From positions 29,601 to 93,600 of the forward strand of contig NZ_JMPJ01000075.1 of NCBI RefSeq assembly GCF_000735345.1: 64,000 nt of DNA. Reading direction: 5' to 3'. Made by a program: the position numbers and the translations under genes. Every line of letters begins with the position of its first letter. Positions within the stretch are counted from its first letter, which is position 1. The notes under the pieces are model-generated. The model was given only the letters and a program-made list of their open reading frames with translations. It searched no databases and was not told the origin of the DNA. Of the stretch, positions 15,831 through 21,252 are shown one piece after another. This stretch comes from Ewingella americana ATCC 33852 (lineage in GTDB: Bacteria; Pseudomonadota; Gammaproteobacteria; Enterobacterales; Enterobacteriaceae).

Positions 15831-16871
15831 TTATTCGGGGAAAATCTCTCCCCATGTTTGTTTAAACCTTTCTTCTTCAAGCTCTACACCAAGAGCGTAT
15901 CGCCCAAGCTTGATCGCTTCTTTTATCGTGGAGCCTGACCCCATGAAGAAATCAGCAACTACATCACCGGGCTTGCTGCTGGCATTAATGATGTCGTGCA
16001 TCATCTCCGCTGGCTTCTCGCAGGGATGTTTGCCGGGATAGAACGGTACAGACTTGTACTTCCATACGTCTGTGAAAGGCACATCTGCTGAAACGCTGAA
16101 TACTCGGCGCAAAGATTTGTGCTCTTCCACGAGCTCCGAGTATTTCTTCGAAAGGGTTTGGTACGTTTCGATCAGCTGGTGGTGCGGGATGTCCAGATCA
16201 TGCTTTGCATGCTTCTCACGAGCTATGCGCTCGAAGAGCTGCTGGAGTTTTAAATAGTCTCCCTCGCTAGGAAGTTGCCACTGGCTTTCACTGAACCAGT
16301 GTGAAGCCATTTGCTTTCCAGTGGCTTCGTGAATGTCCTTTGCCGAGACGTCCAGCGCTTTGCGCGCATTCTTGAAATAATCCACCAGCGGCTTTAGCGT
16401 GTTTTTCCGCTGCTCTTGCTGTTTAGCCTGATAATTAGACCGCTTCCCTCGAAATGGCCCGCTGTAATGCTCTGCAAAGAGAACTCTTTCTGTCGCGGGG
16501 AAATATGACCGCAAGCCCTCTTTATGCTGGAGATTCCATGGACCGGATGGTTTGGCCCAAATGATGTGGTTCAAGACCTTAAACCGCTCGCGTATTAGCA
16601 ATTCGGTGTCAGCGGCCAAGCGTGAACCACAGAACACATACAGGCTGCCCGAGGGTTTAAGCACTCGCCAAAACTCTGCAAACATCTCATCGAGCCAAGC
16701 CAGATAGGCGGATTCGCCAGACCACTGATTATCCCATTTGCATTTCTTAACCCTGAAATAGGGTGGGTCTGTTGCTATCAGGTCGATACAGTCATCGGGT
16801 AACGTTTTGATGTACTGAAGAGAATCCGCGCATACAATATTTATACTGTTTAAATTCACAGTGTTTTTCAT
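15831..16871 (-). CDS. Orphan site-specific DNA methyltransferase (N4/N6 type)
   Basis: A 346-residue SAM-dependent DNA methylase. Catalytic motif DPPYF is at 35-39 and the SAM motif FMGSGST is near the C-terminus (309-315), the beta-class order. The region between (about 150-270) would hold target recognition and is Lys/Glu-rich. No restriction enzyme is adjacent, so it is likely a protective or regulatory orphan enzyme. The start codon lacks a strong ribosome site and is preceded by the folded region 16,896-17,044. The recognition sequence cannot be read from the sequence. Confidence 0.85.
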   Translation of the reverse strand: MKNTVNLNSINIVCADSLQYIKTLPDDCIDLIATDPPYFRVKKCKWDNQWSGESAYLAWLDEMFAEFWRVLKPSGSLYVFCGSRLAADTELLIRERFKVLNHIIWAKPSGPWNLQHKEGLRSYFPATERVLFAEHYSGPFRGKRSNYQAKQQEQRKNTLKPLVDYFKNARKALDVSAKDIHEATGKQMASHWFSESQWQLPSEGDYLKLQQLFERIAREKHAKHDLDIPHHQLIETYQTLSKKYSELVEEHKSLRRVFSVSADVPFTDVWKYKSVPFYPGKHPCEKPAEMMHDIINASSKPGDVVADFFMGSGSTIKEAIKLGRYALGVELEEERFKQTWGEIFPE

Positions 16872-16895
16872 AGATCAGAGTCGCCGTTTTTGGTA

Positions 16896-17044
16896 GGCTC
16901 CATTTGCTGTGTGCACATCAGCAATGGGCCTCGGTTCGCTCGTGACCAACTAACGGGTGAATGGCGTGCACGATGTTACCAGCATCATGTACGCCGCCCA
17001 TTCCACAAACATTTTAGCCCCGGCCATTGCTGGGGCTTTTCTTT
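16896..17044 (+). ncRNA. Candidate structured RNA with plus-strand terminator
   Basis: Three consecutive foldable elements lie here. SL1 (16,896-16,930) has arms GGCTCCATTTGCTG and CAGCAATGGGCC. SL2 (16,959-17,003) has a 13-bp stem with one mismatch, a TTACCAG loop and an outer 4-bp extension. A terminator AGCCCC/GGGGCT followed by TTTTC (17,016-17,044) completes it. The T tract places the terminator on the plus strand, opposite to the late genes. The SL1 right arm could instead pair with the terminator loop GGCCATTGCT. The shape recalls phage C4-type antisense RNAs, but I cannot confirm family membership. No clear promoter was found. Short minus-strand frames here look non-coding. Confidence 0.5.
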
Positions 17045-17049
17045 GAAGT

Positions 17050-17075
17050 AAAAAAGGCCGCCCGGAGGCAGCCTT
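17050..17075 (-). terminator. Terminator after the 74-aa ORF
   Basis: On the minus strand AAGGCTGCC-TCCG-GGCGGCCTT is followed by a TTTT tract, 22 nt after the stop codon of the 17,098-17,322 gene. Confidence 0.75.
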
Positions 17076-17097
17076 AGAAATTTGGATTTGATAATTG

Positions 17098-17322
17098 TTA
17101 CGGAGCTTCTGGCTCCATCTTGCCGAGCTGATTTTTCAAGCTTCGATAGTGGGCCAGTCGCTCACGGAAGTATTCCCGCAGATGTTCCGGCTGTTCACGT
17201 TCTACTTGCTCAGCGATGATCGGCATGTTGTAGCGTTCTTTAAATGCAACGCCACCGGCGGCCAAATCTACGTTGACCTTGTCCATTTCATCCTTGGGCA
17301 AGTTAGCGAGGTTATATGACAT
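17098..17322 (-). CDS. Hypothetical phage protein, 74 aa
   Basis: A small hydrophilic protein ([45 protein letters not shown]) predicted to be mainly helical. I cannot name its family. It has a good ribosome site (AAAGGAGAG) and a terminator on each side. It sits at the beginning of the late transcription unit, after Q and before the methyltransferase and lysis genes. Confidence 0.65.
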
Positions 17323-17352
17323 TGGTCTCTCCTTTTTGGAGAGTATAGCCCT

Positions 17353-17383
17353 AAAACAACAAAACCCCGCCGGAGCGAGGTTT
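17353..17383 (-). terminator. Terminator upstream of the late genes (tR'-like position)
   Basis: On the minus strand AACCTCGC-TCCG-GCGGGGTT is followed by TTGTTGTTTT. It lies between Q and the first late gene, where lambda has the terminator that Q must override. Confidence 0.65.
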
Positions 17384-17509
17384 CTACACTTTCTAAGCTT
17401 TGTGACTACGTGACCACTCTTAACACATTACAACAACTTTTGCGTACGCGTTAATATTTTATTACTCTCAGTAATACACAGTATTCTCATAAAATGGATA
17501 GAACAAAAA

Positions 17510-18661
17510 ATGAGCAAGTTATCTATAAAACACGTCATTGTTCATGAATTAATCAAGGAAGCACAAAAAGATTTCGACCACTCAAATCGTTACAACCTTC
17601 GCGATACAGAGTTGGATAAATCCAACGCGATAGTACAAAAATTAGTTGATGGTGTTGTCGATTTATATGGGTCACGAGGTAACTTAGCACATCATGGGGT
17701 ATTCAAGAGTGATCCTACTCTATGTGGACCAGTGCCTGATCTCTTCAATACCTACCGCTCTGTTACTCCTTCGAATACAGTGGATTTTATCAACATCTCG
17801 AAACAAATCATGATGCAGATGTATAAGGAAGCAAAAAATCAAACCTGGTCTTCCGGTGGATATGTAGTTTTTACGGATTATGAGTCTCAGGGTCTGCGTT
17901 ATCTTTTAGTTACTATGATAAAGAAAAAAAATGGCGTAACTATAAGTGAAAACCTTAATCCCGAAGAAATGATTCATTTAGAGCTTAATTACATAAATCA
18001 GGCTGCGAGAATTAACTTTCAAAAGTATCACGAATACTCTGTAGCTGATGATATTAAGAAAACTGAAATTAGCTATCTTAGTTTCATAAGTAAGACTAAT
18101 GGGCAATCCGCTTCAGCATATTTTATAGCTGCTCTTGGGTGCGATAAGGGGATAGCATCTGCTGGTGCCACAAGAAAACTACCAACCGAGATTAAGAAGT
18201 TTTTCAAGAAACACCCTGAATTAGCACCACATGCTGAAGAGTTTAAAAATAAAATAATAAAATACCTCGAGAAACAATATGAATCAAAAATATCGGCAAG
18301 CTTATCAGATGTTGAAGCCAAAGCATTTGAACAGTTATCGTTTTTGAACGATGATGAAAAACGAGATAACCTTTTGGGGAAAATGATGCAACACTTAAAT
18401 AGTGAAGGAGTTGGTATCCCTTCCGATTTTGTTGTAAATAAAGGTTCCCTTGATAAACTTAGAAAGGTAATATATAAAAATCCATCGTATAGTTTTAACT
18501 TCGATAAAGAACTCTTGGGAGACAACGCAGATGCAAAAATATACTACAATGATGCAACAGGAAACCTTATTTTTAACAACCTCCCAGAAGAGGCAAAAAC
18601 TAAAATAAGGTCTGCCTTAAAAGAAAAAAAACCGGTGAAAGGTGAGAAAAAGAGTGAATAG
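17510..18661 (+). CDS. NA37-family nucleoid-associated protein (YejK/NdpA-like)
   Basis: A 383-residue protein whose start (SKLSIKHVIVHELIKEAQKD) and following region (YNLRDTELDKSNAIVQKLVD, LYGSRGNLAHHGVF) match the 37-kDa nucleoid-associated protein family. Family members bind DNA-associated complexes, but their function is little known. It is on the opposite strand from the late genes, is visibly AT-rich with rare-codon usage unlike its neighbours, and overlaps the next gene, so the pair forms an operon. The location between Q and the lysis genes is the place where stx and other morons sit in lambdoid phages. A defence or superinfection-exclusion role is my inference. Confidence 0.8.
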   Translation: MSKLSIKHVIVHELIKEAQKDFDHSNRYNLRDTELDKSNAIVQKLVDGVVDLYGSRGNLAHHGVFKSDPTLCGPVPDLFNTYRSVTPSNTVDFINISKQIMMQMYKEAKNQTWSSGGYVVFTDYESQGLRYLLVTMIKKKNGVTISENLNPEEMIHLELNYINQAARINFQKYHEYSVADDIKKTEISYLSFISKTNGQSASAYFIAALGCDKGIASAGATRKLPTEIKKFFKKHPELAPHAEEFKNKIIKYLEKQYESKISASLSDVEAKAFEQLSFLNDDEKRDNLLGKMMQHLNSEGVGIPSDFVVNKGSLDKLRKVIYKNPSYSFNFDKELLGDNADAKIYYNDATGNLIFNNLPEEAKTKIRSALKEKKPVKGEKKSE

Positions 18662-19871
18662 TCTAAGTAGTGTCGTGGAGCTGTATAGACTGGCTAATCG
18701 CCCTGAATTTATCGATGGGAGATTTTCTGCATCTATACGTTATTCGAAAGAACTAAAAAATACACTTGAGTCTATTCTTTCTGAGGGCTTTAGATTCGGC
18801 AGCTTTGATGATTTAAATGTCGATGATGAAGAGTTTTATTGCATTCAAGACATCCCTGCTAGTGGCAGTTTACTAAACTTCGAATTTTTAGTCAGCCAAT
18901 CCAGTGCCGAAAGCTTTTACGAATCAGAAAAAGAATTTATTAAAATAAATAGTCTCATGCGTGGTGAAGTTCCAGAACAATACTACATTGTTGATCTTGA
19001 TTACTTATCAAGCGAACAGGGAAAACCGACATCAATAAAGAAAATTGAAGCCATCTGTGGCTTGATAACATCCCTTTCAAAATTATCACATTTTCATGAT
19101 ATGAAAAACAGTGGCCATGGTAATTTCTATAGACTTGTTTTTGTGCTTCACTCGGAGTCAAAATCATCTTCAGCAGTAATTGAAACATTACTATCAGAAG
19201 AGATGTTGGAATATGAAGAAATAAATACAAGCTTAATAAATTCCTTGGCCTCAATTAAACCAGCGTCCGATTTCCACTATGATGAAAAAGTAAACACCTT
19301 TAGAAATACACTCATCGAATATATTAACTCATCGGAAATTACTTTCAAGGAAATTATTAAAAATTGGGGGTTAATAACCACTTTATATAGCAATAACCTT
19401 GCTGTATACATGTCTGCTTTTTCGTTTCAAAAAGCAAGGAAAGAAGTTGCGGAAACTGAAATAGAATATGCGGATAAAATATCAAAAATTACAACAGAAA
19501 TCGCCAATAAAGCTTTAGCAATACCAATCTCATTAGTAGCCTCAATCGCAATATTTCAGCTAACGGGTAAGATTGAGATTTCTATAACATTTTCTGGCTT
19601 GGTGATTGCTAGTATTATAATATCACTTATAATAATATCTCAACAAAAACAACTAAACAGAATATCACATGCTAAAGACATTGTTTTTTCATCAATTGAA
19701 AAAAAAATTCAAGATGATAACTCTGATTTAAAAATAAGATTAATAGAAGCCAAGGAAGAACTAAAGAGCAATGCAGAGTTTTGCAATATGGTTTTAAAAT
19801 CCCTAATGACAATAGCCTGGGTGCCAGTAGGAATAGGCACCCTTGGGCTTTTGTACCGTTTAATTAGTTAA
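18654..19871 (+). CDS. Unknown protein with C-terminal membrane segments, partner of the NA37 gene
   Basis: About 405 residues with no family I recognise. The first 270 residues are soluble and acidic. Then follow hydrophobic segments near 287-304 (ALAIPISLVASIAIF) and 308-329 (FSGLVIASIIISLIIIS), a charged coiled-coil stretch, and a last one near 380-402 (SLMTIAWVPVGIGTLGLLY). GTG 18,654 is chosen because GGTGAG lies 7 nt upstream; GTG 18,642 is also in frame. It overlaps the NA37 gene, shares its low GC, and ends by overlapping Q's stop codon. A membrane effector paired with a DNA-associated sensor is a reasonable hypothesis. Confidence 0.7.
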   Translation: MNSLSSVVELYRLANRPEFIDGRFSASIRYSKELKNTLESILSEGFRFGSFDDLNVDDEEFYCIQDIPASGSLLNFEFLVSQSSAESFYESEKEFIKINSLMRGEVPEQYYIVDLDYLSSEQGKPTSIKKIEAICGLITSLSKLSHFHDMKNSGHGNFYRLVFVLHSESKSSSAVIETLLSEEMLEYEEINTSLINSLASIKPASDFHYDEKVNTFRNTLIEYINSSEITFKEIIKNWGLITTLYSNNLAVYMSAFSFQKARKEVAETEIEYADKISKITTEIANKALAIPISLVASIAIFQLTGKIEISITFSGLVIASIIISLIIISQQKQLNRISHAKDIVFSSIEKKIQDDNSDLKIRLIEAKEELKSNAEFCNMVLKSLMTIAWVPVGIGTLGLLYRLIS

Positions 19872-20215
19872 CCTTCGAGTATTGCTAACACCCCATTAAT
19901 AAATCCAATGGCTGTCTGCAAGTCTTTTCTAATTGTTCCATCCGAGCATTTTTTTTGCTTTGCTATCGCCCTCAAAGATACTCTGAAAACAAAGTGTAAT
20001 ATAATTAATTCATATTCTTGTGCTCTGTATTTTTTTAATCTGGCTACACAACCGTCAACCATAACTCCTTCATCATCATTACACTGTATCCTCGACTTTG
20101 AGGTTTGAGGTAAAATTCCCTTAAAGCCAGCAGCAATTGGTGAAAAGCTCAGACCGCTATTCTCGCTTGCTGCCCATGCGCCCCAAAGTTCTAAAGTCTC
20201 ATGAATATCACGCAT
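19868..20215 (-). CDS. Antitermination protein Q (phage 82/21 type)
   Basis: A 115-residue protein with the Q start MRDIHETLELWGAWAASENS and SPIAAGFKGILP, then an HTH-like end (LRAIAKQKKCSDGTIRKDLQ). It should bind near the late promoter and let RNA polymerase pass terminators such as 17,353-17,383. ATG 20,215 is chosen for GTGTGGAGAG upstream. It is the last early gene; the late promoter should lie left of it, inside or beyond the NA37 cassette. Confidence 0.85.
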   Translation of the reverse strand: MRDIHETLELWGAWAASENSGLSFSPIAAGFKGILPQTSKSRIQCNDDEGVMVDGCVARLKKYRAQEYELIILHFVFRVSLRAIAKQKKCSDGTIRKDLQTAIGFINGVLAILEG

Positions 20216-20229
20216 TATTCTCTCCACAC

Positions 20230-21252
20230 TTATTTTGCTTTGCCCGTAGCGATTACACCCATCGCCAGCGCGCTGTCCATTGTCCGCATAGCCAGAAGTA
20301 ACTGGCTGCCATTCTCTTCTTCCCACTCGGCCGTATTCGCATGGAGCCTGTCGTGACACTGCCTGCACAGCGGTATCACGAACATGTCATGCGCTTTTGT
20401 CCCCATACCGCCGAAGCCATTACCGGTGATGTGGTGCGGATCGTCGGCCTGATTACCGCATCCGCAGCACGGCTGACGCTTAACCCACTGCGTGTACTTG
20501 GCGCTCTCCCAGCGGCGGCGCTTCGGTCGCAGCATGAAGGATTCCGGCGTCTCCGGGTCAATGGCAACGTGTAGAACTGCCTTAACCGGCTCAACGCGCT
20601 CTTTCAGCACCTGAACAGGATGCGCCTCCGGCGCAATGTCCGACTCGCGGCCAACCGACTTAATCGGCTTTTCTGGCTGCCAGCGCAACGCGTGGCGCGC
20701 GGCATCGTAGGGCATCAGGTCAACCAATCCCCGCAGCGTGGCCCACCAGCACAAGTCATAGAAGCTCAGCTGGTGGCCTTCCGACAGCTTCAGCTCTCTC
20801 ACGGCGCTTACGACAATAAACTCAGCGCGGTTACGGTCGGCCAGCCTGTCCAGCTCGTCCAGAATGTGCTCTCTGAATTTGTTTTCGTGGTGCCAGCACA
20901 GGCGGACGCCGCTGTGGCCATATTTAAGAGTGTCCATTTCCTTGGTGTGGTACTTATCGTCGCTGCGCGTCCACTGGCAGGTCATGATCCGTTTTAACCA
21001 GTCTCTCAGCGCCCACTCGCCGCCAGCAGCGTTCAATACCCGCTCATTCATGAAGAAATCTTTCAGGCGCTGATCATCCACCAGCGAATGAATGACATCC
21101 GGTAGTTTGCCGTCTGGCTGGTCCGCCAACTCCGGTGGAACCGTAGAAACGAGCAGCTGCTTTTGGTCGAACAGCCACATTAAGTCTGTACCGGGCGTAA
21201 ATATGCCAACACCGGCGGCGCGCTGGGCGTAGGGCTTTAGTAATGCTCTCAC
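20230..21252 (-). CDS. DUF968-family phage protein with zinc-binding HNH-like C-terminus
   Basis: A 340-residue protein of the DUF968 family common in lambdoid early regions. The N-terminal two thirds (MRALLKPYAQRAAGVGIF) has no known activity. The C-terminus has CCGCGNQADDPHHITGNGFG and LCRQCHDRLH, a Cys/His arrangement like HNH nucleases. The GTG at 21,252 overlaps the antirepressor stop (GTGA) and has AGGAGA upstream. It probably acts in recombination or replication, but this is not shown. Confidence 0.75.
   Translation of the reverse strand: MRALLKPYAQRAAGVGIFTPGTDLMWLFDQKQLLVSTVPPELADQPDGKLPDVIHSLVDDQRLKDFFMNERVLNAAGGEWALRDWLKRIMTCQWTRSDDKYHTKEMDTLKYGHSGVRLCWHHENKFREHILDELDRLADRNRAEFIVVSAVRELKLSEGHQLSFYDLCWWATLRGLVDLMPYDAARHALRWQPEKPIKSVGRESDIAPEAHPVQVLKERVEPVKAVLHVAIDPETPESFMLRPKRRRWESAKYTQWVKRQPCCGCGNQADDPHHITGNGFGGMGTKAHDMFVIPLCRQCHDRLHANTAEWEEENGSQLLLAMRTMDSALAMGVIATGKAK

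Follow-up and report, generated by a model that had tools for sequence, protein, structure and literature searches.

A two-gene NA37 and membrane protein cassette beside the Q gene of an Ewingella prophage, with homology to the anti-phage system DS-1

The cassette and its two proteins

A lambda-type prophage of Ewingella americana ATCC 33852 carries a cassette of two overlapping reading frames, both on the plus strand. It was analysed within a stretch of 64,000 nucleotides (nt), called here the window, to which all coordinates refer unless a locus number precedes them. The first gene (17510-18661) encodes protein A, an NA37/YejK-domain protein of 383 amino acids (aa; PF04245, E 1.1e-50; phrog_3767, E 1.4e-83). 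The second (18642-19871) encodes protein B, a membrane protein of 409 aa as listed (phrog_5023, E 9.9e-84). Translation of B probably begins at the GTG at 18654 (405 aa) and not at the listed start, since a ribosome-binding-like AAAGGTGAG suits this position, as does the start annotated for the homologue in Klebsiella phage P7641.

The cassette had been picked out in a first reading of the DNA letters (the original prediction), and much of that description holds. The neighbouring genes (the antiterminator gene Q, a gene for a DNA polymerase III theta-like protein and a DNA methylase gene) are all on the minus strand, opposite to the pair, and the first gene does encode an NA37 protein. The pair is also clearly richer in A/T: GC content is 0.344 for 17462-19871 against 0.528 for the whole window, only 2 of 1232 sliding 2410-bp windows are equally low, and the minimum, which starts at 17400, lies on the cassette. 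The cassette had been delimited as 17353-19871 and placed between Q and the lysis genes. It does adjoin Q, but the theta-like gene and the methylase intervene before the lysis genes; likewise, the genes begin only at 17510, and the first 157 bases (17353-17509) are non-coding and consist of a terminator-like hairpin, a probable Q-site/late-promoter block and a leader of approximately 55 bases.

The solved relative of A found by sequence search is YejK (9be2); the other two matches (E 0.75 and 0.99) are due to chance. A is only 22-23% identical to the core-type NA37 copy of the host (which scores 381 bits against PF04245) and reaches 131.8 bits with the NCBIfam YejK model, under the cut-off of 341. 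Pfam gives no match for B with E values up to 1, the function of phrog_5023 is unknown, and neither a Pfam scan of 45 B homologues nor a sequence search for related solved structures gave anything consistent. Family-mean hydropathy has maxima at residues 287-305, 314-332 and 387-405. An AlphaFold2 model of B (mean pLDDT 88.9) has an alpha/beta part up to about residue 230, followed by long helices. We propose from the model and the hydropathy that B has an alpha/beta soluble part, long helices, a membrane hairpin and a C-terminal hydrophobic helix; the soluble part of 270 residues with C-terminal membrane segments predicted originally was close to this. Foldseek and VIA searches with the model returned helical-bundle matches only, and the N-terminal part was barely covered by VIA.

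Linkage of the pair, DS-1 and other NA37 partners

The two genes clearly recur together elsewhere; the lack of co-occurrence that would have refuted the original prediction was not observed. Scanning IMG/VR with B, A was directly upstream in 44/44 loci and, with A, B was directly downstream in 53/55; in both exceptions (L095 and L125) A ends within 40 bases of the end of the contig. Many contigs are common to both sets, and the motifs for A came from pair-borne A proteins, which favours pairs. A was also directly upstream of B in 11/11 cases among GTDB genome contigs. A phrog_5023 search of 295 family-level genomes matched eight, including that of E. americana itself, with A upstream in seven; the eighth (L017) is a lone B, itself broken by a stop. 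A convergent Q lies within 400 bp of B in 42/44 loci of the B scan, 43/53 of the A scan, 6/11 of the GTDB set and 3/8 of the phrog_5023 set, several of these loci being short. For 42 loci with distinct B, taken from 91 holding A, B and Q, the correlation of protein distances is 0.956 for A and B but 0.226 for A and Q and 0.286 for B and Q. The linkage, together with this difference, indicates that A and B remain coupled while passing from one phage to another.

Some related pairs lie further afield. The conjugative Pseudomonas putida plasmid p716811-VIM carries a pair (L004:2855-5251) whose B is 26% identical to that of the window, approximately 2 kb from a gene for a NACHT-domain protein. Very divergent pairs of NA37 and a B-like protein occur in distant genomes of the class (L279:1483-3859 and L282:301-2466; 17 and 20 bits with the B profile). 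The Pseudomonas phages PseuP_222 and PseuP_224 are described as sharing a reverse-oriented NdpA/YejK gene (about 88% identical) in otherwise dissimilar genomes (PMC10305613). This is possibly the same kind of module.

According to the original prediction, no system with such a pair had been described. This did not stand: DS-1, for which NCBIfam holds one model per gene (NF053868 and NF053869), is that system in kind. Protein A matches DS1_1_antiphage with 96 bits (equivalog cut-off 330) and protein B matches DS1_2_antiphage with 98.2 bits (cut-off 315). Four other loci, two from the phrog_5023 search (L014 and L015) and two from the slot described below (L162 and L219), pass both cut-offs, with 428-478 bits for A and 362-400 bits for B. 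In a tree of 55 NA37 proteins, the A of the window falls in a clade of 35 rows (support 97/97) beside a three-row DS-1 clade (100/100), the two being joined with 94/97. YejK-type and NA37-Rel proteins stand apart, and the host copy and seven partner-less NA37 rows lie outside the window clade. Since the pair is below the stated cut-offs, we classify it, from sequence comparison, not as DS-1 but as a sister family of it.

The NCBIfam DS-1 models most likely derive from the DefensePredictor study. That study cloned 94 units, found protection of E. coli MG1655 with 42 of them and lists a YejK nucleoid-associated domain among the newly validated systems (PMC13092281). The open-access literature searched gave no other report that brings YejK and anti-phage activity together.

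NA37 also occurs with a second, unrelated partner. In one cassette of the slot (L152, 8567-10662) it is followed by a RelA_SpoT-domain protein (71 and 63 bits in Pfam for the two proteins). A search with this NA37 found a RelA_SpoT-type gene directly downstream in 7/7 distinct loci (L147, L152, L247, L248, L258, L259 and L260), the domain being confirmed by Pfam in the distant L258, and L280 and L212 hold further pairs of this type. The NA37 of this Rel-paired clade is homologous to A (hhalign probability 96.3). One conserved NA37 with two unrelated partners would fit a sensor with exchangeable effectors.

The same observations bear on another explanation, that A and B form a toxin-antitoxin system in which A, as antitoxin or autorepressor, would bind B or the promoter, stabilisation of the prophage being the main role and defence incidental. 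Two overlapping, strictly linked and co-evolving genes are what this explanation expects, and the alternative NA37 partner is of the RelA/SpoT type, a fold that is used by toxins; the E. coli copies with an IS1-interrupted B or a frameshifted A also speak for it. However, A is a YejK relative of 383 aa and usual antitoxins are smaller. Strain 214-4 combines a frameshifted A with a B whose annotation bears no flag, so that cells may survive B when A is not intact, and L017 has B without A, although that B is broken. We regard a toxin-antitoxin role as unlikely.

The slot between Q and its probable binding element

The right border of the region holding the cassette is the antiterminator gene Q (19868-20368, minus strand; PF06530, E 2.9e-43), which is convergent with B and overlaps its last bases. 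The left border is a block at 17413-17454 (minus strand) composed of an invariant part (17413-17425) and an allele-specific dyad, TTTTGCGTACGCGTTAA (17438-17454). Going in the late direction, the block is closely followed by an intrinsic-terminator-like hairpin (17361-17384, minus strand). Next come the DNA polymerase III theta-like gene (17098-17322, minus strand; PF06440, E 3e-37), which is the first late-side gene, and an N6/N4 DNA methylase gene (15831-16871, minus strand; PF01555, E 4.3e-45). Four terminator-like sites were found in 16850-17620 against 1.0 expected from shuffles, and none between B and Q against 0.3 expected. With phmmer over the loci searched, the theta-like gene had no copy beyond this genome's own.

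In other loci the invariant ACCACTCTTAACA is followed by a dyad of one of several types (GCGTACGC, GCGGACCGC, ACGTACGT, TTCGTAACGAA and others). For a comparison we took 161 loci that have Q and a single block, condensed them to 99 distinct cases and left out six with other dyads. Mean identity of Q is 0.69-0.90 within the same dyad type and 0.36-0.48 between types, with overlapping ranges (lowest within a type 0.25, highest between types 0.60). The dyad type thus varies together with the Q allele, which makes the block most likely a Q-binding element plus late promoter of minus-strand orientation; the cassette would then occupy a slot between Q and its own binding element. We rejected the idea that the block is a promoter shared by the cassettes, as 19 sites without a cassette have it as well and its dyad follows the allele of Q. 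The covarying dyad types also provide a ready data set for the study of Q/DNA specificity.

Many different cassettes follow this block. In E. coli, the cassette region matched 499 records (497 of 5,426 genomes), of which only 9 covered at least 80% of the query. Forty matches were sampled across the 499, and 36 of them were confined to the block, a stretch of about 60-78 bases to the left of the cassette in which no gene is annotated. Of five such sites inspected, one is empty and four have other plus-strand cassettes after the block (a metallophosphoesterase; DUF262 and HEPN; three hypothetical genes; a KAP NTPase).

The block pattern was then used to scan IMG/VR and gave at least 120 loci (L126-L245); the IMG/VR slot counts given here and below are those among the matches listed. 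Q was recognised in 82 of the 120. All 82 have a plus-strand frame of at least 100 aa between block and Q, with at least 29 cassette architectures, and in 81 of them the GC content of the insert is below that of the Q side (mean 0.354 against 0.513). Clustering of these complete loci placed the DS-1 family in eight (two with A in two pieces) and a KwaB family in four; the window's own pair family appeared only at loci where Q was not found. Since this pattern favours filled sites, the scan was repeated with the invariant half only. This again gave at least 120 loci, of which 89 are new (L284-L372): 60 filled, 19 empty (Q within 300 bp of the block) and 10 without Q. All 60 filled sites have a GC content under that of the Q side, and the longest frame is on the plus strand in 53 and not in the other seven. 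Five sites (L300, L325, L333, L351 and L352) share a 795-bp insert with no plus-strand frame of at least 100 aa, the longest frame (223 aa) being on the minus strand.

Slot contents were annotated for representatives only, and 2/10, 5/10 and 5/9 proteins in three batches passed the curated Pfam cut-off. The domains are GmrSD_N, MAE_28990 HEPN, KwaB, AAA_15/21, NA37, RelA_SpoT, metallo-beta-lactamase, porin, DUF6731, KAP NTPase, metallophosphatase-NACHT and cytosine methylase. Cassettes after the same block include DS-1 proper (L162 and L219), KwaB-domain cassettes, GmrSD_N with HEPN, AAA_15/AAA_21 with a cytosine methylase, a metallophosphatase-NACHT protein (171 bits with the DS-8 model, under the cut-off of 790) and KAP NTPases. 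PADLOC gave three clear matches for ten slot proteins (PDC-S42, PDC-M53A and PDC-M53B), a weak one to JetB (E 0.0058) and none for the other six. These patterns lead us to consider the stretch from Q to its probable binding element as a slot in which lambda-type phages exchange cargo; it is AT-rich, and its genes mostly run opposite to the late genes. Its position lets further cargo of such phages, immune modules included, be read off.

The KwaB-domain cassettes (L129, L163, L194 and L242) were identified by Pfam on L194 only, and their small partner was not confirmed as KwaA by a model. They raise the question of whether the NA37 pair could be a variant of Kiwa, with NA37 as a KwaB relative. 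This was rejected: hhalign probability is 0.1 in both directions against a 10-sequence KwaB alignment, and neither A nor B matches KwaB in Pfam with E values up to 1. A related explanation is superinfection exclusion at entry, in which B would block DNA injection at the membrane and A would merely regulate B. The hydrophobic segments of B and the sharing of the slot with a KwaB-domain cassette are in its favour, but A has no detectable relation to KwaB and the strict co-evolution of A and B suggests partnership over mere regulation. We judge it very improbable.

The slot also accommodates a broader alternative, in which the pair is some other lysogenic-conversion or regulatory cargo: NA37 would modulate the topology or silencing of host or prophage DNA, B would be its membrane anchor and there would be no defence function. 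This would agree with the porins found in the same slot and with what is reported of YejK, which binds DNA and interacts with gyrase and topoisomerase IV, and of a mobile-element NdpA2, which counters silencing by the H-NS-type protein MvaT (PMC8934667, PMC9927451). Against it, both genes are homologous to an anti-phage model pair, several slot neighbours are defence genes and NA37 has a second, different partner. This alternative appears quite unlikely to us.

A proposed immune module and its relation to known systems

The reading that we favour, with moderate confidence, is that the cassette is a prophage-encoded two-gene immune module with a DNA-associated sensor and a membrane effector, sister to DS-1. 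The original prediction had suggested an anti-phage module of this design, and it has become the best reading through the homology of both genes to DS-1, their linkage as a unit and the slot that they share with known defence genes. Protein A would be a soluble DNA-associated sensor that monitors the state of the DNA. Protein B would be held in the inner membrane by its helical hairpin and C-terminal helix and held inactive, whether directly or not, by A or by DNA to which A is bound. An invading phage that perturbs the DNA (for example, its topology or replication, or by nucleoid break-down) would cause A to switch B on, and active B might then permeabilise or depolarise the membrane, with death or stalling of the cell ahead of phage release, as in abortive infection. 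The cassette would be transcribed in the lysogen from its own promoter. As it is tail-to-tail with Q with no recognisable terminator between them, we propose that, on induction of the resident prophage, early lytic transcripts reading through Q would continue into the cassette in antisense and reduce its expression.

More generally, and more tentatively, the NA37/YejK fold could be a general DNA-based infection sensor with exchangeable effectors, these being the membrane protein in DS-1 and its sister family and an alarmone-type synthetase in the NA37-Rel pairs. Lambda-type phages would keep such modules in a dedicated slot between Q and the Q-binding element, where convergence with Q would shut them down when the phage itself grows lytically.

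A number of observations weigh against an immune role. Since both DS-1 cut-offs are missed, the transfer of function to the pair rests on remote homology, and the link between DS-1 and the validated YejK system rests on the NCBIfam name, the text of the study, as far as accessible, giving no number (PMC13092281). The search of B in defence databases envisaged in the original prediction produced the sub-threshold NCBIfam match, but PADLOC has no match for B, nor for A. NA37 by itself is no mark of defence: a class-wide phrog_3767 search matched 20 of 369 genomes at 23 places, most of which have neither a B nor a RelA_SpoT partner by profiles (the exceptions besides the window are weak B-like neighbours in L279 and L282 and RelA_SpoT in L280). 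The likeness of B to CorA and to alpha-pore-forming toxins (ClyA/AhlB-type) is within the helical-bundle background, and a consensus scan found no promoter-like site upstream of A. One porin family supplies 31 of the 53 plus-strand cassettes of the invariant-half set (Porin_1 on L336), so that the slot serves lysogenic cargo in general and not defence alone, and the slot protein matching PDC-S42 is also a putative phage structural protein in NCBIfam. Finally, two E. coli copies are broken: IS1 interrupts B in one (L003:7260-9263) and A is frameshifted in the other (L010:4616-5756), where B is annotated without a flag.

Among known arrangements, the gap between Q and the lysis genes is where Stx phages carry stx. 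The analogy is loose: relative to the Q-binding element, cassettes of the window type are found on the opposite side, and their genes run in the reverse direction. The slot resembles the defence hotspots of P2 and P4 prophages in that interchangeable cargo occupies a constant position in a phage genome (PMC9122126, PMC9519451), but it belongs to lambda-type phages and is bounded by Q and the probable Q-binding element. This slot is not described in the portions seen of these two reports and of PMC11364771 and PMC10121019, and the open-access literature searched for a Q-linked slot yielded papers on P2/P4, on chromosomal hotspots and on Stx pR'.

Kiwa is, like the present cassette, a pair of a membrane protein and a soluble protein, and a KwaB-domain cassette occupies the same slot, but NA37 has no detectable KwaB homology and the gene order is opposite. 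Chromosomal YejK/NdpA, of which the same genome has a core-type copy (L011), shares the NA37 domain; A differs in falling below the YejK cut-off, in being tied to B and in belonging to a separate clade. In the NA37 and RelA/SpoT-type pairs, NA37 is again directly upstream of the presumed effector, and three of them (L147, L152 and L212) follow the same block; their partner carries a RelA_SpoT domain instead of being a membrane protein, and their NA37 proteins form a clade of their own (100/100). The same NA37 sensor with two unrelated partners offers a testable idea of how DS-1-type systems work.

DS-1 itself is the closest. It has the same order of NA37 and membrane protein, both homologous to those of the window over most of their length, and similar placement: L162 and L219 follow the same phage block and L014 adjoins a Q. 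DS-1 A proteins (L014, L015, L162 and L219) start with zinc-ribbon-like cysteine pairs that A of the window lacks in an alignment by eye, and B of the window has approximately 40 extra residues ahead of the part matched by DS-1. The pair is, therefore, already known in kind through DS-1. What is new is the phage-carried sister family, the apparent series of NA37 sensors and effectors, and the slot; DS-1, known so far by its name and a plating result, is thereby extended to a large family carried by phages.

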